Assembly: GCA_022771805.1 (NCBI GenBank)
Contig: JALELM010000019.1
Coordinates: 1 to 64,000, forward strand
Direction: 5' to 3'
Length of the DNA: 64,000 nt
DNA from: Veillonellaceae bacterium
Lineage (GTDB): Bacteria > Bacillota > Negativicutes > Veillonellales > Negativicoccaceae
A program made the position numbers and the translations under genes. Shown here in pieces: positions 27,982-61,803 of the stretch. A model generated the notes under the pieces. That model worked only from the letters and a program-made list of their open reading frames with translations, did not search any database and was not told the origin of the DNA. Every line of letters starts with the position of its first letter. Position 1 is the first letter of the stretch.

Positions 27982-29091
27982 ATGGCAAAAAAGGTATTGC
28001 GGGAAGGATACACGACCGGCTCCACGGCGACCGCAGCCATGAAGGCGGGGTTGCTGGCGTTGCGCGGTGAATTTCCCTCGCAGGTGACGGTGGAGACACC
28101 GCAGCATCGGGAGTTGCGTATCCCCGTCGTGCAGGCGGAGGTGCGGGACGGACGAGGCTGGGCGCAAGTCTTGAAGGACGGCGGCGACGATATGGATGTC
28201 ACGCACGGCACACCGATCGAGGTGACGGTCGAAGTGACGGATACTCCGGGGGTGGTATTTATCGCCGGGGAAGGTGTCGGAACGGTGACGAAGCCGGGCT
28301 TGCAGATTCGCGTGGGCGAGCCTGCCATTAATCCCGGCCCGCGCTGGATGATGCAACGGGTGTACGGCGAGTTGTTACCGCCGGAGAAGGGTTGCGTCGT
28401 GACGGTCAGCGTGCCGGCGGGGCGTACCTTGGCGGAAAAAACGCTGAATCCCGTCCTGGGTGTGGTCGGCGGGATTTCGATTATCGGGACCAGCGGCATT
28501 GTCAAGCCGATGAGTGAAGAGGCCTACAAGAAGTCGTTGATTCCGCAGCTGACCGTGCTGCGCGCGGCGAAGAAAAAACTCTGCCTGCTGGCTCCGGGGC
28601 GGATCGGGCATGATGCGGCGTTGCGCGTGTTGCATGTGCAGCCGGAAGATTTGGTGGAAACGAGCAATTTCATCGGCTTCATGCTGGAAGAAGCCGTGGA
28701 CAAAGGGATGACGGAAATAGTCCTCATCGGCCACATCGGCAAGCTGGTCAAGGTGGCCTCGGGCAGCTTTCACACGCACAACCGCATGAGTGACGGCCGC
28801 ATGGAGACATTGGCCGCTTATGCCGCACTGAACGGAGCATCCCAAGAAACGGTACGGGAGATTCTGGGCTGTGCAACGACCGACGGCGCTTTGGAAATCA
28901 TCGTTCGAAACGGACTGGAGTGTATTTACCCGCAATTGGCGGAGCGGGCACAAGTTCGTGCGATACGCTACCTGCACAATGAGGCAAGAGTGGGCGTGAT
29001 TTTCGTGACCATGCAGGGAGAAATTTTGGCGATGAGCAGCATCGCCGAGGAAATCGGGAGACGTGAGGGATGGCTGAAACAATCATCGTAG
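27982..29091 (+). CDS. cbiD: Cobalt-precorrin-5B (C1)-methyltransferase
   Basis: A 369-residue enzyme of the oxygen-independent corrin pathway that methylates C1. The glycine/threonine-rich N-terminus R-E-G-Y-T-T-G-S-T-A-T-A-A is diagnostic, as are I-N-P-G-P-R-W-M, I-G-T-S-G-I-V-K-P-M-S and G-H-I-G-K-L-V-K-V-A-S-G. GGAGACC precedes the ATG. The presence of CbiD and CbiG rather than CobG/CobF marks the anaerobic route. It overlaps cbiE by 22 bp. Confidence 0.96.
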   Translation: MAKKVLREGYTTGSTATAAMKAGLLALRGEFPSQVTVETPQHRELRIPVVQAEVRDGRGWAQVLKDGGDDMDVTHGTPIEVTVEVTDTPGVVFIAGEGVGTVTKPGLQIRVGEPAINPGPRWMMQRVYGELLPPEKGCVVTVSVPAGRTLAEKTLNPVLGVVGGISIIGTSGIVKPMSEEAYKKSLIPQLTVLRAAKKKLCLLAPGRIGHDAALRVLHVQPEDLVETSNFIGFMLEEAVDKGMTEIVLIGHIGKLVKVASGSFHTHNRMSDGRMETLAAYAALNGASQETVREILGCATTDGALEIIVRNGLECIYPQLAERAQVRAIRYLHNEARVGVIFVTMQGEILAMSSIAEEIGRREGWLKQSS

Positions 29092-29696
29092 CGGGCATCG
29101 GGCCGGGGGATCCGGACTATGTTATCCCGCGGGCGACGGCGGCGATCCGGGCGGCAGATGTGGTGGTCGGCGGCAAGCGGGCACTGGCGACATTTGCTAC
29201 GGAGCGGCAGCTGCAGATTCCGGTGACGGGGAAGTTACAGGAATTGGCGAAGGCAATGCGCGCCGTACCGGAAACGAGTCGCATCGTGGTGCTGGTCAGC
29301 GGTGATCCGGGCTACTACAGCCTGTTGCCGTGGGTGAAGCGAACCTTTCCGGAGGCGGAAGTGGAAGTGATCCCGGGACTGTCGAGCATGCAGGTCGCTT
29401 TCGCGCGCTTGGCGGAAGTGTGGCAGGATGCCGCTTTGCTGAGCTTTCACGGCCGTGTGCCGGAGCCTGCTGAATTGGTCTATGCGCCGGGACGTAAGCT
29501 GGGCTTTTTGACGGATGCGGAACACAATCCCGGCTTTATCTGCCGGGAGCTGATGGCGCACGGTTGGCCGGCCGAAACCCGGGTCGATATGTTGGAAAAA
29601 ATCAGTTATGCGGAGGAACGGCGGCGCAGCGGTACTTTGGCGGAATGTGCCGACGAGACGGGTTTCTCGCATTCGATAGTGGTGGTGAGAGGATGA
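29070..29696 (+). CDS. cbiE: Cobalt-precorrin-7 (C5)-methyltransferase CbiE
   Basis: A 208-residue tetrapyrrole methylase that adds the C5 methyl group. The SAM-binding opening I-I-V-A-G-I-G-P-G-D-P-D-Y-V and the loop V-L-V-S-G-D-P-G-Y-Y-S-L are typical. In this genome CbiE and CbiT are separate proteins rather than the fused CobL. The ATG lies inside cbiD and the stop overlaps cbiT (ATGA). Confidence 0.94.
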   Translation: MAETIIVAGIGPGDPDYVIPRATAAIRAADVVVGGKRALATFATERQLQIPVTGKLQELAKAMRAVPETSRIVVLVSGDPGYYSLLPWVKRTFPEAEVEVIPGLSSMQVAFARLAEVWQDAALLSFHGRVPEPAELVYAPGRKLGFLTDAEHNPGFICRELMAHGWPAETRVDMLEKISYAEERRRSGTLAECADETGFSHSIVVVRG

Positions 29697-30280
29697 AGTA
29701 TAAATACGGTTTGGCGGATGAGGAATTCATTCGCGGCAATGTGCCGATGACCAAGTCGGAAATTCGGGCAATGGTCATGGTACGGGCGGCCATCGAGCCT
29801 GCCATGCGGGTGTTGGATATCGGGGCGGGAACCGGTTCGCTCACGATCGAAGCGGCCTTGCAGGCGTATGACGGACAGGTGTATGCGGTGGAGCGCAATC
29901 CGGAAGGTGTCGCATTGATTCGCCGCAATGCGGAAAAGTTCGGCCTGGACAATATTACTGTGGTGGAAGGGCGTGCCCCGGAGGCACTGGCCGATCTGCC
30001 GCAGATGGATGTCATCATGATCGGAGGATCGGGCGGCGAGTTGCCGCAGATTTTGGCTGAATGTGAGCGTTTGCTGCGCCCGGGCGGTCGCATCGTGGCG
30101 ACGGCGGTAACGGTGGAAACGGCGCATCGTCTGGCGGCGGAATGCCGGGAACGCGGCTATATGTACGAGGGGTTTCAGATGCAGGTGAATCGGCTGCAGA
30201 AAGCGGGGCCGCACCATTTATTGCAACCGTTGAGCCCGATTTATATTGTGACGGCGATGCCGAAGGGGGAAGAACAATGA
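29693..30280 (+). CDS. cbiT: Cobalt-precorrin-6B (C15)-methyltransferase (decarboxylating) CbiT
   Basis: A 195-residue class I methyltransferase that methylates C15 and removes the ring C acetate carboxyl. G-N-V-P-M-T-K-S-E-I-R-A is the CbiT N-terminal signature and L-D-I-G-A-G-T-G-S-L-T-I-E the SAM motif. GAGAGG lies just before the ATG, which overlaps the cbiE stop; a longer frame from 29564 overlaps cbiE and lacks support. Confidence 0.95.
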   Translation: MKYKYGLADEEFIRGNVPMTKSEIRAMVMVRAAIEPAMRVLDIGAGTGSLTIEAALQAYDGQVYAVERNPEGVALIRRNAEKFGLDNITVVEGRAPEALADLPQMDVIMIGGSGGELPQILAECERLLRPGGRIVATAVTVETAHRLAAECRERGYMYEGFQMQVNRLQKAGPHHLLQPLSPIYIVTAMPKGEEQ

Positions 30281-31050
30281 CACAGGTGTATTTTATCGGT
30301 GCGGGTCCGGGAGACCCGGAACTGATTACGGTGAAGGGGCGTCGCTTGATTTCGGAAGCGGATGTGGTAATCTATGCGGGCTCACTGGTGAATCCGGAGA
30401 TTTTGCAGTATTGCAAAGAAGGTGCGGAGATTCACAACAGCGCGTCCATGAGCCTGGACGATGTGCTCGTCGTGACAAAACGGGCGGTCGGCGAAGGCAA
30501 AACGGTAGCGCGCGTACATACGGGCGATCCGGCGATTTACGGCGCGATCCAAGAGCAGATGGATGCCCTGAAACCGGCGGGAATCGAGTTTGAAGTCATC
30601 CCGGGCGTCAGCTCGTTTTTGGCCAGTGCCGCCGCGTTGAAGCAGGAATATACCTTGCCGGGCATTTCACAGACGGTGATCATCACCCGCTTGGAAGGAC
30701 GTACGCCGATGCCGAAGAAAGAGCAACTTTCGTATTTGGCTGCGCATCAGGCGACCATGTGTATCTTCTTGTCCGTGCAGATGATGGACAGCGTGGTAGA
30801 AAACTTGGTGCTCGGCGGCTACAGCATTGATACGCCGGTGGCCATTGTCATTCGCGCATCGTGGCCGGATCAAAAGATCCTGCGCGGCACGCTGGGGACG
30901 ATTGCCGATATCGTTCGCGAAGAAGGCGTTATCCGCCAGGCGATGATCGTGGTCGGGCGTGTGCTCGGCGGTGATTATGAACTGTCCAAACTGTATGATA
31001 AACAATTCAGCCATATGTTCCGGGACGGTGTCGAGGCGGATTCGAAATGA
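30277..31050 (+). CDS. cbiF: Cobalt-precorrin-4 (C11)-methyltransferase
   Basis: A 257-residue tetrapyrrole methylase. V-Y-F-I-G-A-G-P-G-D-P-E-L-I-T-V-K-G, then D-V-V-I-Y-A-G-S-L-V-N, R-V-H-T-G-D-P-A-I-Y-G and V-I-P-G-V-S-S-F are diagnostic of CobM/CbiF. Start ATG overlaps the cbiT stop. Confidence 0.95.
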   Translation: MTQVYFIGAGPGDPELITVKGRRLISEADVVIYAGSLVNPEILQYCKEGAEIHNSASMSLDDVLVVTKRAVGEGKTVARVHTGDPAIYGAIQEQMDALKPAGIEFEVIPGVSSFLASAAALKQEYTLPGISQTVIITRLEGRTPMPKKEQLSYLAAHQATMCIFLSVQMMDSVVENLVLGGYSIDTPVAIVIRASWPDQKILRGTLGTIADIVREEGVIRQAMIVVGRVLGGDYELSKLYDKQFSHMFRDGVEADSK

Positions 31051-32150
31051 GCCGCTGCGCCGTTATTTCCGTGACGGAGCGCGGGGCAAGACTCGGTGCA
31101 AGGGTTGCCGCAGGTCTGGATACGGAGGTCACTCTCTATGAGCGCGAAGGTCGCGGCAGCGGGAAGCCGGCGGTTTATTTCCGCAGTACACCGGCGCTGA
31201 CGAAAGAGATCTTTGGCGAGTATGACGTGCTGCTGTACATTATGGCAACGGGGATTGTTGTCCGCTCCATTGCTCCCTGCGTGCAGGACAAGACGCGGGA
31301 TCCCGCCGTTATTGTAATGGACGAAGGCGGCAAGCACGCAATCTCGCTGCTTTCGGGGCATTTGGGCGGTGCCAACGAGTGGACGCAAGTGATTGCCGAA
31401 CTGGCGGGAGCGGTGCCGGTCATCACGACGGCGACCGATGTCCAAGGCCGTCCGGCGCCGGATGTGCTCGCGCGACGGATCGGCGCGCGGGTGACGCCGG
31501 TGGCGAAACTGAAGCCGGTCAATGCGGCGGTCGCTCACGGCGAGGAAGTCCGCTACTACGTGGATGAAAGAATGCCGTTGGCGGAAGCCATTCGTGCCGC
31601 GGCGGCCGAGCTGGGGATAGTCTGCCGGCCGACAGCGGAGCTGGCAGCACCGCAGACGCAGGCGGCAACGGTCGTGATTTCCGATCGCTGTGACTTGTCT
31701 GCGCCGGAACCGGCCGTCTACTTGCGGCCGCCGACGCTCGTTCTCGGCATGGGTTGCCGGCGCGGTACGGAGGAGGCTCTGTTGGCGAATGCCGTTCGTG
31801 AGGCTTGCGCCGCTGTCGGTCGCAGCCCGCTCGCAGTTGCACACATTGTTTCCGTGGATGTAAAAGCGGATGAAGAAGGGCTGTTGGCTCTTGCCGAGAC
31901 GTACCGTCGACCGATTACTTTTTATCCACGGCAGGAACTGGCGGAAGTGATCCGCCGCTACGGACTGGAGGAGTCCGAATTTGTAAAGAAAACGATAGGA
32001 GTGGGGAATATATGCGAATCGACAGTCATCTTAACAACGAAAAATCCGCAGCTCATACTGGGGAAAACCAAGTACAGGAGTGCGACCGTAGCACTGGGAG
32101 AGGCTACATCGCTGTCGTCGGTCTCGGCCCGGGTCATGAAGAAGAGATGA
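31047..32150 (+). CDS. cbiG: Cobalt-precorrin-5A hydrolase CbiG
   Basis: A 367-residue enzyme that opens the delta-lactone and releases the C20-derived two-carbon fragment in the anaerobic pathway. The N-terminal domain has Y-I-M-A-T-G-I-V-V-R-S-I-A-P and G-H-L-G-G-A-N-E-W; the C-terminal domain has L-V-L-G-M-G-C-R-R-G-T and a V-x-x-I-C-E-S-T-like stretch. It is unusual because its last 139 bases are also the first 139 bases of cbiH in another frame, and the conserved CbiG C-terminus lies inside the overlap. Confidence 0.93.
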   Translation: MSRCAVISVTERGARLGARVAAGLDTEVTLYEREGRGSGKPAVYFRSTPALTKEIFGEYDVLLYIMATGIVVRSIAPCVQDKTRDPAVIVMDEGGKHAISLLSGHLGGANEWTQVIAELAGAVPVITTATDVQGRPAPDVLARRIGARVTPVAKLKPVNAAVAHGEEVRYYVDERMPLAEAIRAAAAELGIVCRPTAELAAPQTQAATVVISDRCDLSAPEPAVYLRPPTLVLGMGCRRGTEEALLANAVREACAAVGRSPLAVAHIVSVDVKADEEGLLALAETYRRPITFYPRQELAEVIRRYGLEESEFVKKTIGVGNICESTVILTTKNPQLILGKTKYRSATVALGEATSLSSVSARVMKKR

Positions 32151-32836
32151 CGCCGCGAGCCTATGAGGCCATCAAGTGGTGCGATATCGTTGTCGGCTAC
32201 CATACGTACATGAGCCTGATCAAAGATCTGATCGCCGGGAAAGAACAGGTCGGCACGGGGATGAAACAGGAAATCGACCGTTGCCGGCGGGCGGTGGAAT
32301 TGGCGGCGGAGGGGAAACGTGTCGTCGTGGTTTCCTCCGGCGATCCGGGTGTGTACGGTATGGCCGGGCTCGTTTTGGAGCTTGTCGGCAAGTTGCCGGC
32401 GGAGCAGCGGCCGGAAGCGGAAATCATTCCGGGTCTGACGGCGGCAAATACGGCCGCCTCGATCCTCGGTGCGCCGCTGATGCATGATTATGCGGTAATC
32501 AGCCTCAGCGATTTGCTGACGCCTTGGGAATTGATCAAAAAACGCGCCCGCATGGCGGCGGAAGGTGATTTTGTCATCGCGTTGTACAATCCCCGCAGCC
32601 GCGGTCGGGCGACTCATTTGGACGAAATTTGCGAGATCATTCTGCAATATCGCGATCCGGCGACGCCGGCGGGGATCGTACGCAAAGCCGGGCGTGCCGG
32701 GATGTCCTACACGATTACGGATCTGGCAAATCTGGCGGCACAGGATGTCGATATGCAATCGACCGTCATCATCGGCAACAGCCGTACACGGGTGGAAGAC
32801 GGCCGAATCATTACCCCGCGCGGGTATGAACTGTGA
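32012..32836 (+). CDS. cbiH: Cobalt-precorrin-3B (C17)-methyltransferase CbiH
   Basis: A 274-residue tetrapyrrole methylase (CobJ/CbiH) that causes ring contraction and C17 methylation. The methylase domain starts only at about residue 31 (Y-I-A-V-V-G-L-G-P-G) and has V-V-S-S-G-D-P-G-V-Y-G-M-A and A-L-Y-N-P-R-S-R-G-R. The first ~30 polar residues have no family similarity and come from reading the end of cbiG in another frame. ATG 32012 is supported by AGGAG/GGGG upstream, and no ATG, GTG or TTG occurs in frame between it and the domain start, so the long overlap seems necessary. Confidence 0.92.
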   Translation: MRIDSHLNNEKSAAHTGENQVQECDRSTGRGYIAVVGLGPGHEEEMTPRAYEAIKWCDIVVGYHTYMSLIKDLIAGKEQVGTGMKQEIDRCRRAVELAAEGKRVVVVSSGDPGVYGMAGLVLELVGKLPAEQRPEAEIIPGLTAANTAASILGAPLMHDYAVISLSDLLTPWELIKKRARMAAEGDFVIALYNPRSRGRATHLDEICEIILQYRDPATPAGIVRKAGRAGMSYTITDLANLAAQDVDMQSTVIIGNSRTRVEDGRIITPRGYEL

Positions 32837-33600
32837 TCTGGGTCATCTCCGGCACGCAGGACGGGCGTGAACTGGCGGGCGAATTGCGCCGTGTCAGCGG
32901 GGAGGATGTTGTCGTCACGGTCGTCAGCAACTACGGCAAACTGCTCGCGGCGGAAGCGGTGGATGAAGTCCTGGTCGGGCGCCTTACACAGGCGGATATG
33001 GAGAACCTGATTCGAGCCAAGGCGATCCGCTGCGTGGTGGATGCCAGCCATCCGTATGCGGCGATCGTTTCGGAAACGGCCCGCGCCGCCGCAGCCGCTT
33101 GCAAGATCGATTACTTGCGCTATGAACGGCCGGAAGTCACGCTGCCCGCTTACGAAAAATTACACCATGTCGGTAATGAAGCGGAGGCCGCGGAGTTGGC
33201 GGGAAGGTTGGGCGAACGCATCTATCTGACGACCGGATCCAAGACCTTGCGCACGTTCATGAATGCGCCGGTCTTGACGGGGAAAGAAGTCTGGGCACGG
33301 GTTTTACCGACGGTGGAAGTACTGACGATTTGTGAAGAACTCGGTCTGACGCCGAAGTATATCGTGGCGGTACAGGGACCGTTCAGTTATGAGATGAATC
33401 TGGCCATGTTCGTCGATACGGCGGCGGATGTCGTCGTGATGAAGAACAGCGGCCTGGTCGGCGGTACGGATACGAAACTGGCTGCGGCGATGGCTGCGGG
33501 CTTGGAAATTATCGTAATTGACCGACCGAAACCGCAAACACAGGGATTCAAAGTGCTGCACTCGGCAGCGGAAGTTATTCGGGCATGGGAGGAATTATAA
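32833..33600 (+). CDS. cbiJ: Cobalt-precorrin-6A reductase
   Basis: A 255-residue CobK/CbiJ reductase of the macrocycle. I-W-V-I-S-G-T-Q-D-G-R-E-L near the N-terminus, V-V-D-A-S-H-P-Y-A, Y-L-R-Y-E-R-P and T-G-S-K-T-L follow the family pattern. The GTG start overlaps the cbiH stop (GTGA); the TAA overlaps the cbiC ATG. Confidence 0.93.
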   Translation: MIWVISGTQDGRELAGELRRVSGEDVVVTVVSNYGKLLAAEAVDEVLVGRLTQADMENLIRAKAIRCVVDASHPYAAIVSETARAAAAACKIDYLRYERPEVTLPAYEKLHHVGNEAEAAELAGRLGERIYLTTGSKTLRTFMNAPVLTGKEVWARVLPTVEVLTICEELGLTPKYIVAVQGPFSYEMNLAMFVDTAADVVVMKNSGLVGGTDTKLAAAMAAGLEIIVIDRPKPQTQGFKVLHSAAEVIRAWEEL

Positions 33601-34259
33601 TGGATTACATCAAACAGCCGAAAGCGATTGAAGACAGAAGCATGGAATTGATTGCGCCGCATTTGGCGGGGTTGAACCTGAATGAGGATGAAACGGCGGT
33701 GTACTCCCGCATGATTCATACCACCGGTGACGTGGAGTACGGCAAAATCGCCCGCAAGAGCGAGGGTGCGGTGGAAGCCGGTATCCGGGCGCTGGCGGCG
33801 GGGGCGCGGATTTATACCGACGTGGAAATGGTGCGGACGGGGACGAATAAACGAGCCCTGGCGCAGCTGAACGGCGAGATTTTTTGCCGCGTTTCCGATC
33901 CGGAAGTGGCGGCGTATGCCAAAGAGCAGGGAATTACCCGCTCGATGGCGGCCATGCGTATGTTCGGCAAGGATCTGGACGGCAGCATTATCGCTATCGG
34001 CAATGCTCCGACCGCATTGTTTGAAGTCATTCGGATGATGGAAGAGGACGGCATTCGGCCGGCGCTCATCATCGGGATCCCGGTCGGTTTCGTCGGCGCG
34101 GCGGAATCGAAGGATGAATTGATTAAACGTTCACCGGTACCGTACATTACCGTAGTCGGTAATAAAGGCGGCAGCCCGGTTGCGGCCTCCGTACTGAATG
34201 CTATGCTTTATAAGTTGGTGCAGCGCACGGATATGTTATATATCGAGAATAAAAAGTAA
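33600..34259 (+). CDS. cbiC: Cobalt-precorrin-8 methylmutase
   Basis: A 219-residue enzyme that moves the C11 methyl to C12, giving cobyrinate. R-M-I-H-T-T-G-D-V-E-Y carries the catalytic His region; D-V-E-M-V-R-T-G, I-G-N-A-P-T-A-L and I-G-I-P-V-G-F-V-G-A-A-E-S-K are conserved. GGGAGGAA lies upstream. cbiL, cbiA, cbiP and the lower-pathway genes are not in the window. Confidence 0.95.
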   Translation: MDYIKQPKAIEDRSMELIAPHLAGLNLNEDETAVYSRMIHTTGDVEYGKIARKSEGAVEAGIRALAAGARIYTDVEMVRTGTNKRALAQLNGEIFCRVSDPEVAAYAKEQGITRSMAAMRMFGKDLDGSIIAIGNAPTALFEVIRMMEEDGIRPALIIGIPVGFVGAAESKDELIKRSPVPYITVVGNKGGSPVAASVLNAMLYKLVQRTDMLYIENKK

Positions 34260-34271
34260 GCGGGTGACGTG

Positions 34272-35285
34272 ATGTCCGAGCACGGAACACAGGCGCAGGA
34301 AACGGACGGCAGAAGAGCACGCCGTTGGTTCGTACTGGCGACATTGCTTTTTCTACTGGTGCTCGTCTTATTCGGCAGCTTGGTCTTAGGGGCGACCCAT
34401 GTCCCTCTGAGCGACTTGCCGTCTATTTTCGCGGGCACGTACCGGGGTATGGAAGGACCGATTATTCTCAATATCCGTTTTCCGCGGAATATTGTCGGCG
34501 CCTTGGTCGGGGCGAATTTGGCGGTCGCCGGAGCGATTTTGCAGGCGGTCATGAAAAATCCGCTCGCCGATCCGGGCATCGTCGGTGTATCGAGCGGGGC
34601 GGGGCTTGCCGGTGTATGCATGTTGGTGATGTTTCCCGAATGGACATACTTGGTGACGCCGGTCGCTTTCATCGGTGCGCTGGGTGCGGCACTGTTCGTC
34701 TATGCGCTGGCTTGGAAGAACGGCATCCGGCCGTTACGGATTATCCTCGCCGGGGTCGCGGTGAATGCCTTTTTGGGGAGCGGTATTTCCGCCTTACTGA
34801 TTTTTTACGGTGATCGAGTGCAGGGCGCGTTACTTTGGATGGTCGGCGGATTGTCCGCCCGCAGTTGGCCGCAGGTGGAAACGCTGTGGCCGTACACGCT
34901 GCTCGGTCTGATCGTCGCTTTGGCCGGGGCGAAGCAGCTGAACGTCCTCAGCCTCGGTGATGAAACGGCTCGCTCGCTTGGTATGCGTGTCGAACGGATT
35001 CGTTTCTTTATGACTGCGGTGGCGGCGTTGCTGGCGGCAGCGGCGGTCAGCATCAGCGGGCTCATCGGCTTCGTCGGTCTGGTCGTGCCGCATATGGTAC
35101 GCCTGCTGATCGGCAGCGACCATCGCTTTCTGTTGCCCGCATCCGTTCTCGGCGGTGCCGTTATTATGGTCGCCTCGGACACGTTGGGGCGGGTGGCGTT
35201 CAGCCCCGTGGAAATTCCCGTCGGAATTATCATGGCCTTTCTCGGTGCGCCGTTCTTTCTTTACCTGCTGCGGAGGGGTCAATGA
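34272..35285 (+). CDS. ABC transporter permease, FecCD/BtuC family
   Basis: A 337-residue polytopic permease with N-P-L-A-D-P-G-I-V-G-V-S-S-G-A and G-F-V-G-L-V-V-P-H-M-V-R. It starts 12 bp after cbiC and is followed directly by its ATPase, so it is expressed with the corrin-ring operon. That context favours a corrinoid (BtuC-like) or cobalt-chelate substrate over an iron siderophore; sequence alone cannot separate them. A GTG at 34269 is an alternative start. Confidence 0.9.
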   Translation: MSEHGTQAQETDGRRARRWFVLATLLFLLVLVLFGSLVLGATHVPLSDLPSIFAGTYRGMEGPIILNIRFPRNIVGALVGANLAVAGAILQAVMKNPLADPGIVGVSSGAGLAGVCMLVMFPEWTYLVTPVAFIGALGAALFVYALAWKNGIRPLRIILAGVAVNAFLGSGISALLIFYGDRVQGALLWMVGGLSARSWPQVETLWPYTLLGLIVALAGAKQLNVLSLGDETARSLGMRVERIRFFMTAVAALLAAAAVSISGLIGFVGLVVPHMVRLLIGSDHRFLLPASVLGGAVIMVASDTLGRVAFSPVEIPVGIIMAFLGAPFFLYLLRRGQ

Positions 35286-36064
35286 AGAGCATTCGGGCGG
35301 AACATATCCGCGTCCGCTTCGGCGAAAAAGAAATCCTGTCCGACATCAGCTTTGCGGTGGAACGCGGTGAGATAATCAGCATTCTCGGCGCCAACGGCTG
35401 CGGGAAATCCACGCTGTTGCGTTCTCTGGTCGGCATTCAACCGCGCACGGACGGGCGTGTGTATATCGGCGAAGAAGAGCTGGAACGTTACACGCCGGCA
35501 CGGCTGGCACGCAAGCTGGCATTTCTGCCGCAGGCTGCGGAACCGCCGCAGGACATGACGGTAGAGGAGTGGGTCGGCTGCGGCCGCTATCCCTACCAGG
35601 CCTGGTGGAAACCGGTCTCGGATTATGACCGGGAAGTCGTGGCGCGATCGCTTGTGCAAACACGAGTGAGCCATTTGGCCAAGCGCATGATCCATTCTCT
35701 TTCCGGCGGCGAACGGCAACGGGTACGCATTGCGATGGCCTTGGCGCAGGAGCCGGAAATTATCATGCTGGACGAGCCGACGACCTATCTCGATCTGAGT
35801 CATCAGCTGGAAGTCATGGAACTCCTCTGGCATATCAATCAAACGGACGGCGTAACCGTCGTGATGGTCTTGCACGATGTAAACCATGCCGCCAGGTATT
35901 CGCATCGTTTACTTGTGTTGGCGGAGCGCGGGATCTACCGTCTGGGGAAACCGGAAGAAGTGCTGACTGCCGATGTGATGCGAGATGTCTACGGTGTCCG
36001 GGCGGAAATCGAAACCCGGGACGGCGGCCCGTTCTGCTATGTCCGCGGCTTGTTGCGGACATAA
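35282..36064 (+). CDS. ABC transporter ATP-binding protein, FecE/BtuD family
   Basis: A 260-residue ATPase with Walker A G-A-N-G-C-G-K-S (about residues 36-43), signature L-S-G-G-E-R-Q-R, Walker B I-I-M-L-D-E-P-T-T-Y-L-D and H-loop V-L-H-D-V-N-H-A. All catalytic elements are complete, unlike the ATPase at 5342. The ATG overlaps the permease stop. Likely drives corrinoid uptake together with 34272-35285 and the lipoprotein at 36350-37294. Confidence 0.92.
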   Translation: MKSIRAEHIRVRFGEKEILSDISFAVERGEIISILGANGCGKSTLLRSLVGIQPRTDGRVYIGEEELERYTPARLARKLAFLPQAAEPPQDMTVEEWVGCGRYPYQAWWKPVSDYDREVVARSLVQTRVSHLAKRMIHSLSGGERQRVRIAMALAQEPEIIMLDEPTTYLDLSHQLEVMELLWHINQTDGVTVVMVLHDVNHAARYSHRLLVLAERGIYRLGKPEEVLTADVMRDVYGVRAEIETRDGGPFCYVRGLLRT

Positions 36065-36349: not shown

Positions 36350-37294
36350 TTATTTCTGTTGTAAGTCGGGATAGGCAAGTTCCAGCAGGTGGTGCATGGC
36401 TTCCGGGGTACGGATGCCCGGGTTCAGCAGGTAGAGATCGCTGGGGAGGAAGTAGACGCGGCCGTTTTCTACGGCTTGGAGTTGATTCCAGGCCGGATTG
36501 CCCGTCATTTCCTGTTCAAGCTTTTTCGTGATCTGATCCATTTTGCCCATGGTGACGATGAAAATGATGTCGGGATTGTCCGCGGCGAGTACCTCCAGGC
36601 TGTAGGGAACCGTCTTGGCGGAAATATTGCGGACATGGTCGAGGATGACGTTTTTCATGCCGATTTCTTCCACCATGGAGGCGGTGACGGCACGCGGCGT
36701 TTCCGCAGTCACGTCCTTGCCGGTGGCTCGCAGAACGGCAACCCGCAGGGGCGTTTGTTTTTTGCCGAGTTCTTTTTCCGCCTGAATGCGTTGTTCATAG
36801 TCGGTGATGACTTTGCTCGCTTCGACCTCCGTGCCGGCGATTTTGCCGAAGAACTCCAGCAGCGGCACATTGTCTTCGATGCCCTCGTAGTTCAACAAGA
36901 TGTAGGGGATCTTGTTGGCTTGCAGAATCGACTCCAGCTTTTGGTTTTGCGATTGCAGGCCGATTACGAGATCGGGATTTAAACCGACCAGCGTCTCCGA
37001 GTTGATCGTGGAGACATGACCGATTTCCGGCAAATCCTTCGCCTCGGCCGGGAGTTCGTTTTTCGACGTGGGGCGGGCGACGGCTTTGCCGCCGGCGGCA
37101 TAGTACATGGAGAGCAATGAATCCGAGAGCGGGATGACTCGCTGCGGTGTTGCGGCGAGTGTGATCTCCTTATCCTTGAACCGATAGGCGGCTCGGCCGC
37201 CACTTTTTTTATCCGCGCTGTCGCCGCAGCCGGCGGCAAAGCAGAGGGCAATGATGCTCAATGCGGCTGCCGCATGTTTCCAAAATGATTTCAT
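36350..37294 (-). CDS. ABC transporter substrate-binding lipoprotein, BtuF/FecB family
   Basis: A 314-residue lipoprotein: signal peptide with lipobox F-A-A-G-C (Cys at residue 23), then the class III binding-protein pattern T-P-Q-R-V-I-P-L-S-D-S and L-V-G-L-N-P-D-L-V-I-G. AGGAGG precedes the ATG at 37294; the frame open to 37324 is not needed. It faces the BtuC/BtuD-like genes and lies directly downstream of cbiK, so it probably delivers a corrinoid or cobalt chelate to that permease. A hairpin terminator separates it from cbiK and its own promoter is not obvious. Confidence 0.87.
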   Translation of the reverse strand: MKSFWKHAAAALSIIALCFAAGCGDSADKKSGGRAAYRFKDKEITLAATPQRVIPLSDSLLSMYYAAGGKAVARPTSKNELPAEAKDLPEIGHVSTINSETLVGLNPDLVIGLQSQNQKLESILQANKIPYILLNYEGIEDNVPLLEFFGKIAGTEVEASKVITDYEQRIQAEKELGKKQTPLRVAVLRATGKDVTAETPRAVTASMVEEIGMKNVILDHVRNISAKTVPYSLEVLAADNPDIIFIVTMGKMDQITKKLEQEMTGNPAWNQLQAVENGRVYFLPSDLYLLNPGIRTPEAMHHLLELAYPDLQQK

Positions 37295-37302
37295 AATTCC
37301 TC

Positions 37303-37335
37303 CTAAAGAGAAACGCCTCGGCAAGCCGAGGCGTT
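37303..37335 (-). terminator. Hairpin terminator/attenuator between cbiK and the binding-protein gene
   Basis: AACGCCTCGG (37312-37321) and CCGAGGCGTT (37326-37335) form a perfect 10-bp stem with a 4-nt loop. On the minus strand it is followed by TCTCTTT, a weak U-tract, so partial readthrough into the lipoprotein gene is likely. Confidence 0.7.
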
Positions 37336-37351: not shown

Positions 37352-38398
37352 TTATTTACGCATGTGCATGCCGTGCGGAGTGTACGGCACGAGAGCCTTG
37401 CCGTTATCCAAGGAGTCCAGCGCTTCGCGTGTGCGTTCCACGAAGAGATCCTGTACCATGGCATTTTCACCGAGCCCGTGCAGGTAGGCGTCCACATGGT
37501 AACCGGCCGCCTCCAAGATGGATTTATGGCTGTCTTCTTCGTCACCGGCCATGTCGTTGTTGGCATGGTCGCCGGCCACCATCATGATCGGCATCAGCGT
37601 TACGTCATGGATACCGTTGGCAGCAAGCTTCGGCAGCACATCTTCCAGATGCGGGCGGCCTTCAACGGAGTAGACGAAGACATTGTCCATACCGAGGTCT
37701 TCGAGGCGATCCTGGATCACCGCATAGTATGCATTGGCCGGGTGCGGCGTGCCGTGTGCCATCAAGAGGACGGCATGATCCGCTTTACGCATCTTCGGCA
37801 GTTGCATTTTTACCGCTTCGAGGAAGTCCACTACCTGATCCGGCTGGTCTTCCTGACCCATGTAGTACATCAGCGGGGTGGCGAGCGTTACTTTCTTGAA
37901 GCTCTTCTGGGCGCTCTGTGCCACGAGGCGGGCATATTCGTATTCAATCCCCGGAACAATGTTGAAGTTGACGATAGCCACACGGGTGTAGCCTTCCGCT
38001 TTTAACTGATCCAGAGCCTGTTCCGGGGTCAGGTACTGAATGCCTTCGTTTTCTTTTACGCGGTCAATGATAATATGGCTGGTGAAAGCGATACGAACTT
38101 CTTTGCCCGGGAATGCGTGTTTGATTTTTTTCATTACCGCATCAATCGTTTTTTCCCGGGTATCTTTGAACGTAGTACCGAAGCTGGTGATCAGAACGGC
38201 ATCTTTATTCGGCATGTTCTGCATGGCGGTATTTTCATATACGCGCACACCGATTTCGGAAGCGCCGAGCAGGGCTGTCGTCGGGTTCTTTACTTCATCG
38301 CTCAATTCATAAGCGGCTTGGGCACCGACGCCGGTAAATCCCGCCAGAGCCAGCGCACACAGGCCGGCAACTACATAACGACGTAAGCTCATTTTCAT
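37352..38398 (-). CDS. cbiK: Sirohydrochlorin cobaltochelatase CbiK, exported form
   Basis: A 348-residue class II chelatase that inserts cobalt into sirohydrochlorin. It has V-L-I-T-S-F-G-T-T-F at the start of the domain, L-L-M-A-H-G-T-P-H-P with the metal-binding histidine, and M-M-V-A-G-D-H-A-N-N-D-M with the second. Residues 1-28 form a clear signal peptide (S-L-R-R, hydrophobic core, A-Q-A cleavage site), so the mature enzyme should be periplasmic, as known for the CbiKP type of some sulfate reducers. The ATG at 38398 has AAAGGAG upstream. Its place beside a corrinoid-type binding protein suggests a role in periplasmic cobalt or tetrapyrrole handling rather than only biosynthesis. Confidence 0.92.
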   Translation of the reverse strand: MKMSLRRYVVAGLCALALAGFTGVGAQAAYELSDEVKNPTTALLGASEIGVRVYENTAMQNMPNKDAVLITSFGTTFKDTREKTIDAVMKKIKHAFPGKEVRIAFTSHIIIDRVKENEGIQYLTPEQALDQLKAEGYTRVAIVNFNIVPGIEYEYARLVAQSAQKSFKKVTLATPLMYYMGQEDQPDQVVDFLEAVKMQLPKMRKADHAVLLMAHGTPHPANAYYAVIQDRLEDLGMDNVFVYSVEGRPHLEDVLPKLAANGIHDVTLMPIMMVAGDHANNDMAGDEEDSHKSILEAAGYHVDAYLHGLGENAMVQDLFVERTREALDSLDNGKALVPYTPHGMHMRK

Positions 38399-38734: not shown

Positions 38735-39058
38735 ATGGCTATTGACTTGGAGCGTAAATCGACAACGGAGAAAGGGTATTCGGACTCCCTGTATGAAGTG
38801 CGTTTCGTGCCGGTAACGGAGCGGGCGGAGTATCAGGACGGGCCGATCGCCGCCGCCTTGGCGAAATTGCGGGAAGGCATGGGCGAAAAAGACTTTGAGC
38901 GATATATCAATCAATTATTGCGGATCAATTATGACGGTAAGCGTCTGCTGTTGATCACGAAGAAAGAAATGCACCGTACCATGTTGGAAGGACATTACTT
39001 GGCACAGATTTGCGAATCCTTCGGAACGACACAGGTACGGATTGTCAGCCAGGCCTGA
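38735..39058 (+). CDS. Small protein resembling DnaA domain I, paralogue A
   Basis: A 107-residue soluble protein of no family I can name with certainty. Residues ~45-105 (L-R-E-G-M-G-E-K-D-F-E-R-Y-I-N-Q-L then R-L-L-L-I-T-K-K-E-M-H-R-T-M-L-E) follow the helix-strand pattern of the DnaA N-terminal domain (an x-F-x-x-W/Y-I-x-P-L helix, then a strand and an N-E/E-M-H-R helix). It is clearly paralogous to the protein at 45030 in this half. GGAGGAA precedes the ATG. It has its own promoter and is separated from mutA by the cobalamin riboswitch. The DnaA likeness is my reading of the pattern, not a database result. Confidence 0.75.
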   Translation: MAIDLERKSTTEKGYSDSLYEVRFVPVTERAEYQDGPIAAALAKLREGMGEKDFERYINQLLRINYDGKRLLLITKKEMHRTMLEGHYLAQICESFGTTQVRIVSQA

Positions 39059-39105: not shown

Positions 39106-39141
39106 GAAATTAATGTAATATGCGGATTTATCCGCCCAACG

Positions 39142-39288
39142 AACGGATGCGAAAGCATAAAAGAGAAATCGGTGCAAAACCGATGCGGTCACGCCACTGT
39201 GATGGGGAGCGCGCTTACATATTGTCACTGATGCAGATCGGGAAGACGTAAGTGGCGCAATGATCCTAAGCCAGGAGAACTATCCGTT
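39142..39288 (+). promoter_or_regulatory. Cobalamin riboswitch (B12 element) upstream of mutA
   Basis: The closing stem AACGGAT (39142-39148) pairs with ATCCGTT (39282-39288). Inside are the conserved core pieces: ATCGGTGCAAAACCGATGCG, GTCACGCCACTGTGA, GATCGGGAAGACG and the B12 box AAGCCAGGAGAAC (39268-39280). A hairpin terminator follows at 39351-39387. The arrangement (promoter, aptamer, terminator, gene) predicts control of mutA-mutB-meaB by adenosylcobalamin or a related corrinoid. Confidence 0.93.
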
Positions 39289-39350
39289 TAAGAATCACCG
39301 TTTGACCTACGAGCGATAGGGAGGAGATTGCGCACCGCGTTTCTTTTGGT

Positions 39351-43860: not shown

Positions 43861-45004
43861 TAAGGACACCTACAAACCCAGCTGGGTCCCCGAGAAAGAC
43901 GATGACGCTTTTGCGTGCAGGGTCATGAAGGGAGTCAAAGGCGGCCATGACGGGGTAATGGGAACGCAGGATCAGAAGTTGACGCATACCGGAGTGGTAA
44001 AGGCGCGACGGACATTGACGGTTCAAGATTACATTGACGGTGTAGCAGCGGGCGACAGGGTTATCCTGTCGCGCGCCATCACCCTGGTGGAAAGCAATGC
44101 CGTGCGGCATTTTAAGCCGGCGCAGGAGGTAATTCAGGCACTGCTCCCGCGCACGGGCAAGGCATTGCGGATCGGTTTTACCGGTGTGCCGGGTGCCGGG
44201 AAGAGTACGGCGATTGAAGCGTTCGGTACCATGCTCGCCAATGAGGGACACAAGGTCGCAGTACTGGCGGTCGACCCGACGAGCTCCGTGACGAAAGGCT
44301 CCATTTTGGGCGACAAAACCAGGATGGAAGAGCTGACGCGACACCCGAATGCCTTTGTACGACCATCACCGGCCGGCGGTACGCTGGGCGGTGTGGCGAG
44401 AAAAAGTCGGGAGACGATGCTGCTTTGCGAAGCGGCCGGATACGATGTCATTCTCGTTGAAACGGTAGGGGTCGGACAGTCGGAAACGACGGTTCGCTCG
44501 ATGGTGGACTTCTTCATGTTGATCGTGCTCACCGGAGCCGGAGACGAGTTGCAGGGTATCAAAAAAGGTATCATGGAGCTTGCGGATGCCATTGTGGTCA
44601 ACAAGGCGGACGGCGACAATTTGGCGCGTGCCAAGGTGGCTCGCGGCGATTATGAGCGTATGATCGACTACATTCGCCCGGCAACGGACGGGTGGCGGAC
44701 ACGCTCGATGATGTGCTCGGCAATCAAGAAAACGGGTCTGAAAGAACTTTGGGAAACCATTCTGGAGTTCGAACGTGTCACGAAAGAAAGCGGTGTTTTC
44801 CAGCGGCGTCGTCAGGATCAGACGATAAGCTGGGTATACAGCATGATTCACGAACATTTGCATACCATTTTCTTCCAAAATCCGGTGGTGCGCGGTCGCC
44901 TGCCGGAAGTGAAGGATGCGGTTCTCGGCGGTAAGGTCTCTCCGAGCCAGGCAGTGGACGAGCTGATCCATGTTTTTGAAGGCTCCGCCTTGCGTAAGCA
45001 GTAG
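43853..45004 (+). CDS. meaB: Methylmalonyl-CoA mutase G-protein chaperone MeaB
   Basis: A 383-residue GTPase that gates adenosylcobalamin loading and protects the mutase. P-loop G-V-P-G-A-G-K-S is at about residues 110-117, V-D-P-T-S-S is the Mg/switch region, [10 protein letters not shown] the switch II region, and N-K-A-D the guanine-specificity motif. The ~50-residue N-terminal extension makes it longer than many MeaB proteins (about 320-340). The first codons lie within mutB. Confidence 0.96.
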
Positions 45005-45029
45005 AGACGGATCTGCAGAAAGGGGCATT

Positions 45030-45392
45030 ATGCAAACAATGGAAACAGCAGTGTTTTTGAATGAGTATGATTTGAACGAAGCGGACAGACTGATGCCGGT
45101 TTGGCAAGAGCCGAATCCGTACTTGCGCGGCGAACAGGCGCGTCCCATTTCCGAACGGTTGGAAAACCGGATCGGCGAGGTGGAAGAGGGCTTGGCTCGT
45201 TTACGTGAAAGTCTGGGGGCAGATGCGTTTGCCCGCTACATCGAACCGTTGTCTCGCATCACGGTAAGCAATCGCCGAGCGTTGTTGATTGCACCGACGG
45301 AAATGCATCGCAGTTTGCTGGAGAGGGGATTTATTCCGCAAATTTTGGCGGCATTTGATGTGGATATCGTTCGTATCGTTGCGTCTCGATAG
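45030..45392 (+). CDS. Small protein resembling DnaA domain I, paralogue B
   Basis: A 120-residue soluble protein, last gene of the mutase operon (25 bp after meaB, AAAGGGG before the ATG). Residues ~60-118 (L-R-E-S-L-G-A-D-A-F-A-R-Y-I-E-P-L, then R-A-L-L-I-A-P-T-E-M-H-R-S-L-L-E, ending V-R-I-V-A) align throughout with the protein at 38735. They also follow the DnaA N-terminal domain layout. The N-terminal half, rich in acidic residues, is not shared. Co-transcription with meaB suggests a mutase- or B12-linked role, but none is known. Confidence 0.75.
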   Translation: MQTMETAVFLNEYDLNEADRLMPVWQEPNPYLRGEQARPISERLENRIGEVEEGLARLRESLGADAFARYIEPLSRITVSNRRALLIAPTEMHRSLLERGFIPQILAAFDVDIVRIVASR

Positions 45393-45399
45393 GGGAAAG

Positions 45400-45430
45400 G
45401 GAGATGGTGTATTGTCATCATCTCCTTTTT
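45400..45430 (+). terminator. Intrinsic terminator of the mutase operon
   Basis: GGAGATGGTG (45400-45409) pairs with CATCATCTCC (45416-45425, one G-U pair) around a 6-nt loop and is followed by TTTTT. Confidence 0.88.
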
Positions 45431-45471
45431 CTGTAACGGGAAACAGTATCAAAAAGAAGTGTCAAAAGCTT

Positions 45472-45499
45472 TTGCTACTTAAATATCGATTTGTATTAC
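45472..45499 (+). promoter_or_regulatory. Possible promoter of the tetrapyrrole-processing operon
   Basis: TTGCTA (45472-45477) and TATTAC (45494-45499) with a 16-bp spacer lie ~40 bp before the receptor gene. It is a weak match but is the only candidate in the gap after the terminator. Confidence 0.35.
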
Positions 45500-45537
45500 A
45501 GGGAAAAGATAGATATATTTCAGAAAGAGGGAATATA

Positions 45538-47478
45538 ATGAAGAAAAGACAAAGGGTGCTTTTAGCCGCTTTGATGTGTTGCAGTATCGGCTTGGTTGCC
45601 GGTGCGGCGGATCCGGTATATGAATTGAATCCCGTCTTGGTTACGGCGCAACGGATGCAGACAGATGATCTGCGCACGCCGGCAACGCTTCAAGTAATTT
45701 CGGGGGGGCAGATAGAGAAGAGCGGAACCTACAGTGCGTATGATGTTTTGCGCAGAACCGTCGGTATGAGCGATTACGCCTATGATAACGGCTACGGCTC
45801 GATCGGACCGAGCGTAGCGCGAGTGTACCTTCGCGGTCTGGATAAAGGGACGTTGGTCTTGGTCAACGGCACGCCGCTGAACCAGATGAACTATGCCGAG
45901 CCGGGAGCGATTCCGGCGGAAGCCATCGAGCGCATTGAGATCGTCAAGGGATCGAATGCGGTTCTGTACGGAGCGGAGGCGATGGGCGGTGTCGTGAATA
46001 TTATTACTAAGAGTTCACAGATGACGAAACCGATGATCGCCGTGACGGGCATGCTCGGGAAGGATGAACGCCGTATCGGCCTGACGGCTGCCGGCGACGG
46101 CTACTTTGTCTCGTACGGACAGACGACGGCGGACGAGAGAGCCAATGCACAGTACCCGTACTACAGCAAGGGCTATGTGTCCGGCTACCATCGATATACG
46201 AAGGAAGAAGGCTTTGCTTCCGTGCGCTTGTCGCCGGAATGGACGCTGAACTGGGCACACGGGAAGATCAAGAACGGGATGTTTTATGACTCGATTACTA
46301 AGCCGGGAGTACGGGACAACGGTTCGGGCGTGGCCGGTTATAAATATACGGACACGCGCGACAATGTCAATTTGCAATACGCCAATGAGCGGGGAACGCA
46401 ATTGCGCTTGGCCTATAATACGAAGAAAATCATCGCAGATCGGGAAATGACGTCCGGGGCGGTCGTTCCCTCCGGCAGCGGGAGCAATTATCGCGTCAAC
46501 AACTTTTATTTTGACGCGCAGCAGGAAGCGGACGTTACGAACGGTAAATTGATTTACGGCCTGACGGCATATCGGGAAGAGTATAAACAGGTGCGCTTGG
46601 GTACGGGGAATGCCATCGGGCGCAATCAAGTGGCGATTTTCGGCTCGTACGAAAGGGAAATCAACGATCGCTGGAAGCTGACTTTCGGCGCGCGCGAGCA
46701 TTTCTCTTTGGACAACGGCTGGGATGAATCGCAACGGGTATTTTTGCCGCAGTTGCAGAGTTCCTACATGATTCGGCCGGATCTGAACTGGTATATTAAC
46801 ATCGGCAAATCATTTGAGATGCCGGCCGTTAATAGTAAATTCAGCCGATCCACAACGGCTAGCGGGCCGTTGAAGCCGCAGTCCGGTTGGACGTATGAGA
46901 CGGGCGTGAAGTGGATACGTGCAGAGGACAGCTTGAAAATCGCGGCATTCTACATGGATGTGGATAATCTGTTCGGTTGGGAAAAAGTGAAAAATCTCTT
47001 CCCGAACTATACGGAACTGGGCTTGGATCCGAACGGTGATGTCCAGATCAACCGCGGCGATTTCCGGAATAAAGGCATCGAGGCGGAATATCGTCGGCAA
47101 GTGACACCGGAGTTCGGTTGGTTTATCGGCTACACCGTACAGGATCCGAAGAACAAAGAAAAGCCGACGACACCGTGGGCACAAACAGAAGCGAAGCAAA
47201 TGGGAGTATTCGGCTTTGATTGGACGCGGGATCGTTGGAGCTGGTCGCTGGACGGATATGTGGAAGCGAAACGGCCGATAAATGCACGTACGGCAGATTT
47301 CGGCAAGAAGCCCATTCCGGATCGGATCAGTCTGAACAGCACGTTTCTGCACAATGTATCTCCCGAGACGCAGCTGCAATTGACAGTGCGAAACATTTTG
47401 AATCGGGAGAACTACACTCGTTATTTGTGGGAGGAACGCCCGCGCAGCATCCTGCTTCAAATACGACATCAGTTCTGA
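45538..47478 (+). CDS. TonB-dependent outer-membrane receptor
   Basis: A 646-residue receptor, of the size of BtuB/haem receptors. Residues 1-23 form the signal peptide (K-K-R-Q-R, hydrophobic core, A-G-A). A TonB-box-like N-P-V-L-V-T-A-Q-R (about 31-39) is followed by the plug (V-I-S-G-G-Q-I-E-K-S-G, L-V-L-V-N-G-T-P, I-E-I-V-K-G-S-N-A-V-L-Y-G-A-E-A-M-G-G-V-V-N-I-I) and a barrel ending L-Q-I-R-H-Q-F. AGAGGGAA precedes the ATG; an open frame from 45289 runs through the terminator and is not real. It heads the nitrogenase-like/CobN operon, so its ligand is probably the substrate of that pathway, perhaps a metallo-tetrapyrrole. Confidence 0.92.
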   Translation: MKKRQRVLLAALMCCSIGLVAGAADPVYELNPVLVTAQRMQTDDLRTPATLQVISGGQIEKSGTYSAYDVLRRTVGMSDYAYDNGYGSIGPSVARVYLRGLDKGTLVLVNGTPLNQMNYAEPGAIPAEAIERIEIVKGSNAVLYGAEAMGGVVNIITKSSQMTKPMIAVTGMLGKDERRIGLTAAGDGYFVSYGQTTADERANAQYPYYSKGYVSGYHRYTKEEGFASVRLSPEWTLNWAHGKIKNGMFYDSITKPGVRDNGSGVAGYKYTDTRDNVNLQYANERGTQLRLAYNTKKIIADREMTSGAVVPSGSGSNYRVNNFYFDAQQEADVTNGKLIYGLTAYREEYKQVRLGTGNAIGRNQVAIFGSYEREINDRWKLTFGAREHFSLDNGWDESQRVFLPQLQSSYMIRPDLNWYINIGKSFEMPAVNSKFSRSTTASGPLKPQSGWTYETGVKWIRAEDSLKIAAFYMDVDNLFGWEKVKNLFPNYTELGLDPNGDVQINRGDFRNKGIEAEYRRQVTPEFGWFIGYTVQDPKNKEKPTTPWAQTEAKQMGVFGFDWTRDRWSWSLDGYVEAKRPINARTADFGKKPIPDRISLNSTFLHNVSPETQLQLTVRNILNRENYTRYLWEERPRSILLQIRHQF

Positions 47479-47482
47479 GTTT

Positions 47483-47513
47483 CGGCAGGGAGCCGGCGGC
47501 GGCTCCCTTGCCG
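47483..47513 (+). repeat. Strong hairpin without U-tract between the receptor and NifH-like genes
   Basis: AGGGAGCC (47487-47494) pairs with GGCTCCCT (47501-47508), and flanking CGGC/GCCG extends the stem. The lack of a T-run argues against a terminator; it may stabilise or process the transcript so that the receptor is made in excess. Confidence 0.6.
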
Positions 47514-47545
47514 TAACGGTAAGGAGAAATATAAAGGGTGATTTT

Positions 47546-54500: not shown

Positions 54501-54509
54501 GGAGGCAAT

Positions 54510-60745: not shown

Positions 60746-60750
60746 GGCAT

Positions 60751-61791: not shown

Positions 61792-61803
61792 AAAGGGGTC
61801 GCC

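Follow-up and report, generated by a model that had tools for sequence, protein, structure and literature searches.

An exported CbiK-type chelatase widespread in Negativicutes and its possible role in salvaging an early cobalamin precursor

What would a cobalt chelatase of corrin synthesis do on the outer side of the cytoplasmic membrane? The question is raised by a gene in the window, a 64,000-nucleotide stretch of contig JALELM010000019.1 (positions 1 to 64,000) from a Veillonellaceae bacterium (assembly GCA_022771805.1), which encodes a CbiK-type class II chelatase of 348 aa with an apparent signal peptide (37352..38398, minus strand; PF06180, 5.3e-85). To our knowledge, every described step of corrin ring synthesis takes place in the cytoplasm, and no transporter is known that brings in an early macrocyclic precursor of B12.

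The reading frame runs from the ATG at 38398 to a stop at 37352, with AAAGGAG 5′ of the start. In the Pfam run, which used a 350-aa frame with a TTG start two codons 5′ of this ATG, the PF06180 CbiK domain covers the length of the protein at 285 bits against a cutoff of 26.2; the cutoff of the NCBIfam equivalog SiroCoChCbiK is missed (219.5 bits vs 400). The N-terminus, MKMSLRRYVVAGLCALALAGFTGVGAQA followed by AYELSDEV, reads by inspection as a classical Sec-type signal peptide (residues 1-28; 38315..38398, minus), with a predicted cleavage between AQA and AYE, and aligned homologues likewise carry one before the conserved Y30. Behind it, ahead of the chelatase domain, the mature protein begins with a conserved extension of some 34 residues (approximately residues 29-62; 38213..38314, minus) with the motif Y.L..EVK..T.AL..A..IGV, in which Y30, L32, V36, T40, L43, A46, G50 and V51 are invariant in alignments of 15 and of 24 sequences. 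Equally invariant in both alignments are Glu152 (37943..37945, minus), aligned with Salmonella Glu89, His215 (37754..37756, minus), aligned with D. vulgaris chain His154, and His278 (37565..37567, minus), aligned with D. vulgaris chain His216; we take these three to correspond to the catalytic Glu89, His145 and His207 of Salmonella CbiK. An AlphaFold2 model (mean pLDDT 86.0) finds its structural matches in Salmonella CbiK (1qgo), D. vulgaris CbiKP (2xvx/2xvz) and P. gingivalis FetB (9b86), with Foldseek TMt of 0.92-0.94 to 1qgo and 2xvz. Salmonella CbiK shares the chelatase domain, the Glu and, by alignment, the two His, but it starts at the chelatase domain (query residues 67-330 align with chain residues 2-257) and has neither an export signal nor the extension.

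Downstream of cbiK, past a terminator-like hairpin (37313..37334, minus; read from the sequence, unscored), the adjacent gene encodes a lipoprotein substrate-binding protein (SBP) of a FecCD-type importer (36350..37291, minus; PF01497 Peripla_BP_2, 1.6e-26; lipobox AAGC). The original prediction had described this neighbour as BtuF-like and as a binding partner for uptake. The PF01497 lipoprotein with its lipobox agrees with the uptake part, and the BtuF label holds at the level of fold but fails for BtuF proper, the score against the NCBIfam BtuF model being 41.6 bits against a cutoff of 234. Convergent with cbiK and the SBP gene lie genes for a BtuC/FecCD-type permease (34269..35285, plus; PF01032, 4.8e-96; best NCBIfam match BtuC, below cutoff) and a BtuD/FecE-type ATPase (35282..36064, plus; PF00005; best NCBIfam match FecE, below cutoff). 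Running into this pair is a series of corrin-ring genes (27982..34259, plus; delimited by ORFs and similarity clusters), which we take to be CbiD, E, T, F, G, H, J and C; their names also rest on similarity to an operon of Megasphaera micronuciformis (L193), whose members were named by NCBIfam. The genes for SBP, permease and ATPase adjoin cbiK, and the closest gene for a TonB receptor lies 7 kb off. At the level of sequence it is established that the window gene encodes a CbiK of the exported type, that its active-site residues are intact and that it has an importer partner.

The sole Rfam gathering-level match within the window is a cobalamin riboswitch (RF00174, 88.6 bits; 39128..39301, plus) that is divergent from cbiK and precedes genes presumed to be of the methylmalonyl-CoA mutase type; the Rfam scan found no riboswitch upstream of the window's exported cbiK. 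These mutase-type genes are flanked by small proteins at 38735-39058 and 44970-45392, the latter matching DnaA_N (PF11638) and the former similar to it by eye. Further along, positions 45289-64000 of the window together with positions 1-2520 of the adjoining locus L032 hold a cluster of TonB receptor, NifH-like, NifD/K-like, CobN and BtuC/BtuD-like importer genes, along with genes for a radical SAM protein, ChlI-/ChlD-like AAA+/VWA proteins, an SBP and a second CobN, which looks like a nitrogenase-like, Mg-chelatase-like system for tetrapyrrole modification or salvage. Near the second CobN gene, outside the window, is a gene for a CbiZ-type amidohydrolase (PF01955; L032 3425-4564), which suggests corrinoid remodelling.

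A search for a second, cytoplasmic CbiK or CbiX had been put forward as a check on the idea of export. Outside the window, the host genome does encode an unexported CbiK of 284 aa that has no signal peptide (G000:C6:70076-70864, plus) and likewise falls below the SiroCoChCbiK cutoff (188.3 bits vs 400). No separate CbiX was found in the host genome, where the single PF01903 match falls inside the exported CbiK gene. As originally predicted, the exported CbiK probably acts in the periplasm while the remaining corrin synthesis is cytoplasmic. The host also carries one contiguous tetrapyrrole cluster (L192), whose order we take to be CysG-N, HemA, HemC, CobA-HemD, HemB and HemL, HemC being assigned by Pfam; it should therefore be able to make precorrin-2. 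Searches of the host genome found no ferrochelatase, CbiM, NicO or CbtA.

Whether the chelatase and its partner look suited to haem can be read from aligned residues. The best-scoring NCBIfam model for the window SBP is IsdE, at 118 bits against a cutoff of 299. The IsdE haem ligands are an axial Met and an axial His, and the aligned positions in the window SBP are Ser and Met. All 12 SBPs of an alignment keep this Met, M248, and it could, as a matter of speculation, bind the metal of some other tetrapyrrole. In the chelatase, Glu and Gln align with His96 and His103 of the D. vulgaris CbiKP chain, which we take to be its haem-binding histidines.

The exported CbiK is by no means peculiar to this host. 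PF06180 matches occur in 91 of 100 genomes examined, host included, and the best 80 of 300 relatives come from Negativicutes-named records (Veillonella, Selenomonas, Mitsuokella, Megasphaera, Phascolarctobacterium, Pectinatus, Negativicoccus and others), with one labelled Acholeplasmataceae (L068). All 80 of these loci contain the extension motif, and in 76 it is preceded by a signal-peptide-like hydrophobic segment, as judged with a crude threshold by a hydrophobicity heuristic that works by frame position and can also count untranslated upstream sequence. Among the four below the threshold, L107 and L108 show a signal peptide by eye and L125 and L128 do not; L127, counted as positive, is doubtful. 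Copies of CbiK that have no signal peptide are found in L038, L161 and L045. A signal peptide arising by chance was rejected in view of its retention across the class, and the original claim of export is borne out to this extent. In these same best 80 of 300, cbiK is followed on its strand by an SBP gene within 400 bp in 22 loci, and the other 58 have no SBP within 400 bp 3′ of it.

In a tree of 73 sequences (70 hand-picked from 250 rows, plus three PDB chains), all 34 extension-type rows form one clade (support 100/99) with L180 as its sister, and both unexported CbiKs and short exported CbiKs fall outside it. Four rows labelled by hand as having no signal peptide sit inside the clade. The placement of CbiKP and FetB is unsure because of long branches, and the extension clade is not grouped with CbiKP; descent from CbiKP found no support either way. 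Three genomes of one family group (f4; L039, L040 and L041) each have three close-set CbiK paralogues, one exported and two unexported, with one of the unexported pair very divergent.

Regulation by B12 is a feature of part of this clade. CbiK coordinates were compared with Infernal matches to RF00174 in 60 hand-picked genomes, using a single extension-type gene per genome and 59 in all (the signal-peptide-less genes of G018 and G020 and the split gene of G046 among them, the second copies G027:C17 and G099:C2 set aside). For 21 of the 59 genes, a match on the same strand lies no further than 1 kb upstream of the CbiK domain, against a rough chance expectation of less than 0.001 per gene; in four more it lies 4.9-5.1 kb upstream, and 34 have neither. 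By family group, the matches within 1 kb are distributed as 0/4 (f1), 0/7 (f2), 10/15 (f3, the Megasphaera family), 7/28 (f4) and 4/5 (other families). Rfam scans of 11 chosen loci placed a riboswitch directly before cbiK in five (L104, L131, L126, L109, L055) and at the head of an operon in two (L123, L075), and found none in four (L119, L058, L062, L111). In Megamonas (L104) the order is riboswitch, cbiK, TonB receptor, SBP and TonB receptor. A molybdenum/tungsten riboswitch stands 3′ of the exported cbiK of Mitsuokella multacida (L126 7093-7233) and precedes a permease and an ATPase gene, and these neighbours are therefore probably unrelated to cbiK. From the sequence record it is established that the extension-type exported CbiK constitutes a widespread Negativicutes clade, part of whose members are linked to B12 regulation.

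The most complete arrangement is found in the Megasphaera family, where 4 of 17 genomes have an operon in the order TonB receptor, SBP, BtuC, BtuD, exported CbiK, CbiD, CbiL, CbiF, CbiG, CbiH, CbiJ, CbiET, CbiA and CbiC. The four loci are L193 (Megasphaera micronuciformis, G026; identical to L123), L195 (Colibacter massiliensis, G038; identical to L075), L197 and L199, and in each of them a riboswitch leads the operon, so that TonB receptor, SBP, permease, ATPase and exported CbiK all stand under one B12 riboswitch. In L193, CbiD, CbiL, CbiF, CbiH, CbiJ, CbiE and CbiT score above an NCBIfam cutoff, CbiG and CbiC have these as best matches below cutoff, and CbiA was left out of the comparison; its TonB receptor is nearest to a B12-receptor model and its SBP to IsdE, neither reaching the cutoff. 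The pathway kept here begins with CbiL, which uses what CbiK makes. Two further loci, L210 and L211, have the same operon without cbiK, and at L201, L202 and L203 cbiK is placed elsewhere, behind a riboswitch of its own. Beside the riboswitch-led TonB-SBP-BtuCD-cbi operon of G011 there is a CRISPR array (RF01317 repeats; L210 18692-19859).

Some members of this family appear to have lost the means of making the ring. A four-part query of HemA, HemB, CobA and CbiC was run against 18 genomes, namely the host and the 17 genomes of the family among the 100. Within the family, CbiC is found in 15 of 17, HemB and CobA of at least 58% identity in 10, and HemA in 8. In seven genomes (G011, G020, G023, G026, G038, G046, G048) no HemA, HemB or CobA match of at least 58% identity was found and HemC is absent too, and all seven have CbiC; their weaker matches to the CobA part lie in cbi operons and were read as CbiF, CbiH and similar methylases. 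The stated completeness of the seven is 99, 99, 99, 98, 89, 88 and 78%, three of them being only 78-89% complete, and G011 is listed as one contig of 2,652,760 bases. Corrin genes beyond CbiC, CbiL included, are present in G011, G023, G026, G038 and G046, the G020 operon (L220) has a corrin set without CbiL, and G048 has CbiJ, CbiET, CbiA and CbiC alone on the pieces fetched; at the usual operon place, CbiL was not found in L212, L213, L215, L217 and L220, a result for those positions only. By their gene content, these seven genomes seem to have no way of making precorrin-2 although they retain corrin genes, and since CobA is missing too, the ring would seem to come from outside as sirohydrochlorin, precorrin-2 or a metalated form.

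The chelatase is retained in these same genomes. Each has one PF06180 gene and no separate CbiX, PF01903 matching either the CbiK gene itself or nothing. In five of the seven, the search for chelatases of the CbiK/CbiX type turned up a single one, an intact CbiK with an evident signal peptide; the CbiK of G046 starts with a signal peptide, its gene being split over two frames, and that of G020 has no signal peptide and is missing most of the extension. The two CbiC-less genomes of the family, G029 and G040, have no CbiK whatever. As CbiK is present with corrin genes and absent from these two, the exported-type chelatase tracks the corrin pathway in this family. Across f1-f3, a CbiK bearing a signal peptide is the only CbiK match in 19 of 33 genomes; CbiC was shown for 13 of the 19, with a separate CbiX in none of the 13. 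Eight CbiC-positive genomes of the Megasphaera family have HemB, HemC and CobA, yet have the exported CbiK alone (for two of these, G017 and G042, the query gave no HemA). If these eight make sirohydrochlorin in the cytoplasm, the ring must exit the cell or CbiK must act before export. CbiM is absent from five of the seven genomes without precorrin-2 genes vs two of the eight with them (15 CbiC-positive genomes of the family), and NicO and CbtA were each found in none of the 60 genomes searched; the notion that the exported CbiK replaces the CbiM cobalt importer was set aside, the difference not being significant (Fisher p = 0.13).

The hypothesis that best fits these data, to which we would give about an even chance, is that the exported CbiK serves B12 synthesis as a cobaltochelatase in the periplasm, loading a scavenged sirohydrochlorin-type ring, and that the neighbouring ABC importer takes up the product. 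A sirohydrochlorin-type tetrapyrrole would reach the periplasm, for the most part by scavenging from the surroundings via a TonB receptor, and the exported CbiK would insert Co2+ into it there. The resulting cobalt-sirohydrochlorin is what CbiL acts on; the partner SBP and the BtuC/BtuD-like importer would carry it to the cytoplasm, leaving the cbi enzymes there to complete the ring. We infer the location, the substrate, the insertion of cobalt in the periplasm and the import of the product from signal peptides, conserved residues, riboswitch linkage, operons and the absence of HemA, HemB, HemC and CobA. For the Megasphaera-family relatives that have no precorrin-2 genes, the exported CbiK would be the only entry into corrin synthesis. 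The window's organism has precorrin-2 genes as well as an unexported CbiK, and there salvage would run in parallel as a second route; this is the weakest link, because neither the riboswitch nor the precursor loss is seen in that organism.

Exported CbiKs are already known, and it is the proposed salvage role that would be new. Passages of PMC10913741 describe ihtABCDE of P. gingivalis as TonB receptor, CbiK-like lipoprotein, SBP, permease and ATPase; parts of PMC3764172 describe IhtA as homologous to BtuB and place a coenzyme B12 riboswitch upstream of it, and a section of PMC6461909, citing Roper et al. 2000, gives the species as lacking the steps to precorrin-2. An exported CbiK homologue with these four partners (IhtB/FetB, 9b86), the upstream riboswitch and the reported lack of precorrin-2 synthesis are thus shared with relatives of the window gene. 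IhtB differs in being described as a lipoprotein with a published role in haem, the window CbiK having no lipobox, and in the Megasphaera relatives the exported cbiK sits, unlike its ihtABCDE counterpart, inside a cbi operon. Much like the window protein, the periplasmic D. vulgaris CbiKP has the CbiK fold and a Glu/His/His site, and linkage to B12 riboswitches is described for sulfate reducers in parts of PMC11124144 (a cobalamin riboswitch by cbiKP) and PMC545781 (a Desulfovibrio B12 riboswitch before cbiK-cbiL and btuCDF). The window protein departs from CbiKP in its extra N-terminal extension as well as in the missing His96/His103. By what these reports describe and the present data, the combination of exported CbiK, FecCD-type importer and B12 riboswitch is common to three phyla. 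The tetrapyrrole precursor salvagers of Shelton et al. 2018 (PMC6461909) similarly keep the corrin pathway and have lost early tetrapyrrole genes; the type tested was that salvaging ALA, and the passages at hand name no import or cobalt-loading machinery. The literature searched contained no paper joining exported CbiK, B12 riboswitch and precursor loss, and the supplementary tables of PMC6461909 may list some of the species as precursor salvagers.

Other explanations would also place an exported CbiK among uptake genes. It could be a non-catalytic or accessory protein that binds Co2+ or a corrinoid in the periplasm and passes it to the SBP, with no metalation of a tetrapyrrole. The B12 riboswitch and the TonB/ABC neighbours fit uptake in general, and HemC is present in 50 of 60 genomes, so that the majority of the organisms with this CbiK show no evident requirement for a ring from elsewhere. 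We nevertheless think this unlikely, since Glu152, His215 and His278, for which we presume catalytic roles, are invariant, and an enzymatic role is needed in the 13 CbiC-positive genomes where this is the only CbiK/CbiX-type chelatase, unless one of the CobN type serves. It is more improbable, though short of negligible, that the exported chelatase is an ordinary biosynthetic CbiK active in the cytoplasm before, or instead of, export. That the signal-peptide-bearing CbiK is the sole CbiK of 19 f1-f3 genomes would suit such a dual location, as would the signal-peptide-less members inside the clade, one of them in the precursor-lacking G020; the retention of the signal peptide in most of the best 80 of 300 loci across the class, the separate unexported CbiK of the host and the coupling to TonB and SBP genes all argue against it.

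A role in haem or iron handling, the lead followed by the original prediction and also the proposal made for IhtB, would have the exported CbiK remove iron from haem, or hold haem, for the ABC importer. IhtB/FetB of P. gingivalis is called haem-binding, HaeR, a regulator that responds to haem, binds the promoter of ihtA and does so more strongly under hemin shortage (parts of PMC3764172), and ihtB expression dropped in an hmuS mutant. On the side of our own data, IsdE is the best NCBIfam match of the window SBP, far below cutoff as it is, the window has two CobN-like genes (the second extending past its end), and ferrochelatase was found in none of the 33 f1-f3 genomes. The reading is nonetheless not borne out, and the evidence favours B12 instead, as the regulation and operon partners of the relatives are related to B12 and the two D. 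vulgaris histidines are replaced. Moreover, ferrochelatase is present in all 27 f4 genomes of the 60 searched, which also carry the exported-type CbiK; IhtB production is independent of PgFur according to a section of PMC10913741, and a cbiK disruption in B. fragilis, mentioned as unpublished in part of PMC6460266, left haem-iron use unaffected. We regard a haem or iron role as improbable, a little less so than the dual location and a little more so than the accessory one.

Returning to periplasmic cobalt loading, a wider form of the proposal falls somewhat short of even in our estimation: Negativicutes, and by extension P. gingivalis with IhtB, may insert cobalt into scavenged sirohydrochlorin in the periplasm and import Co-sirohydrochlorin, which would be the sole entry to B12 where precorrin-2 cannot be made and would also serve for cobalt uptake where CbiM, NicO and CbtA are missing. 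If true, periplasmic cobalt insertion would resolve the 'enigma' of how P. gingivalis makes cobalamin, and the question posed in 2000, of how this species feeds its corrin pathway, would become testable by single-gene deletions. The same step would assign a function to an exported chelatase that is widespread and has a relative in P. gingivalis interpreted in terms of haem. The salvage role would account for microbes that produce B12 but not the compound from which its ring starts, and it would point to a new kind of cross-feeding, of sirohydrochlorin or Co-sirohydrochlorin, among anaerobes of the mouth and gut.
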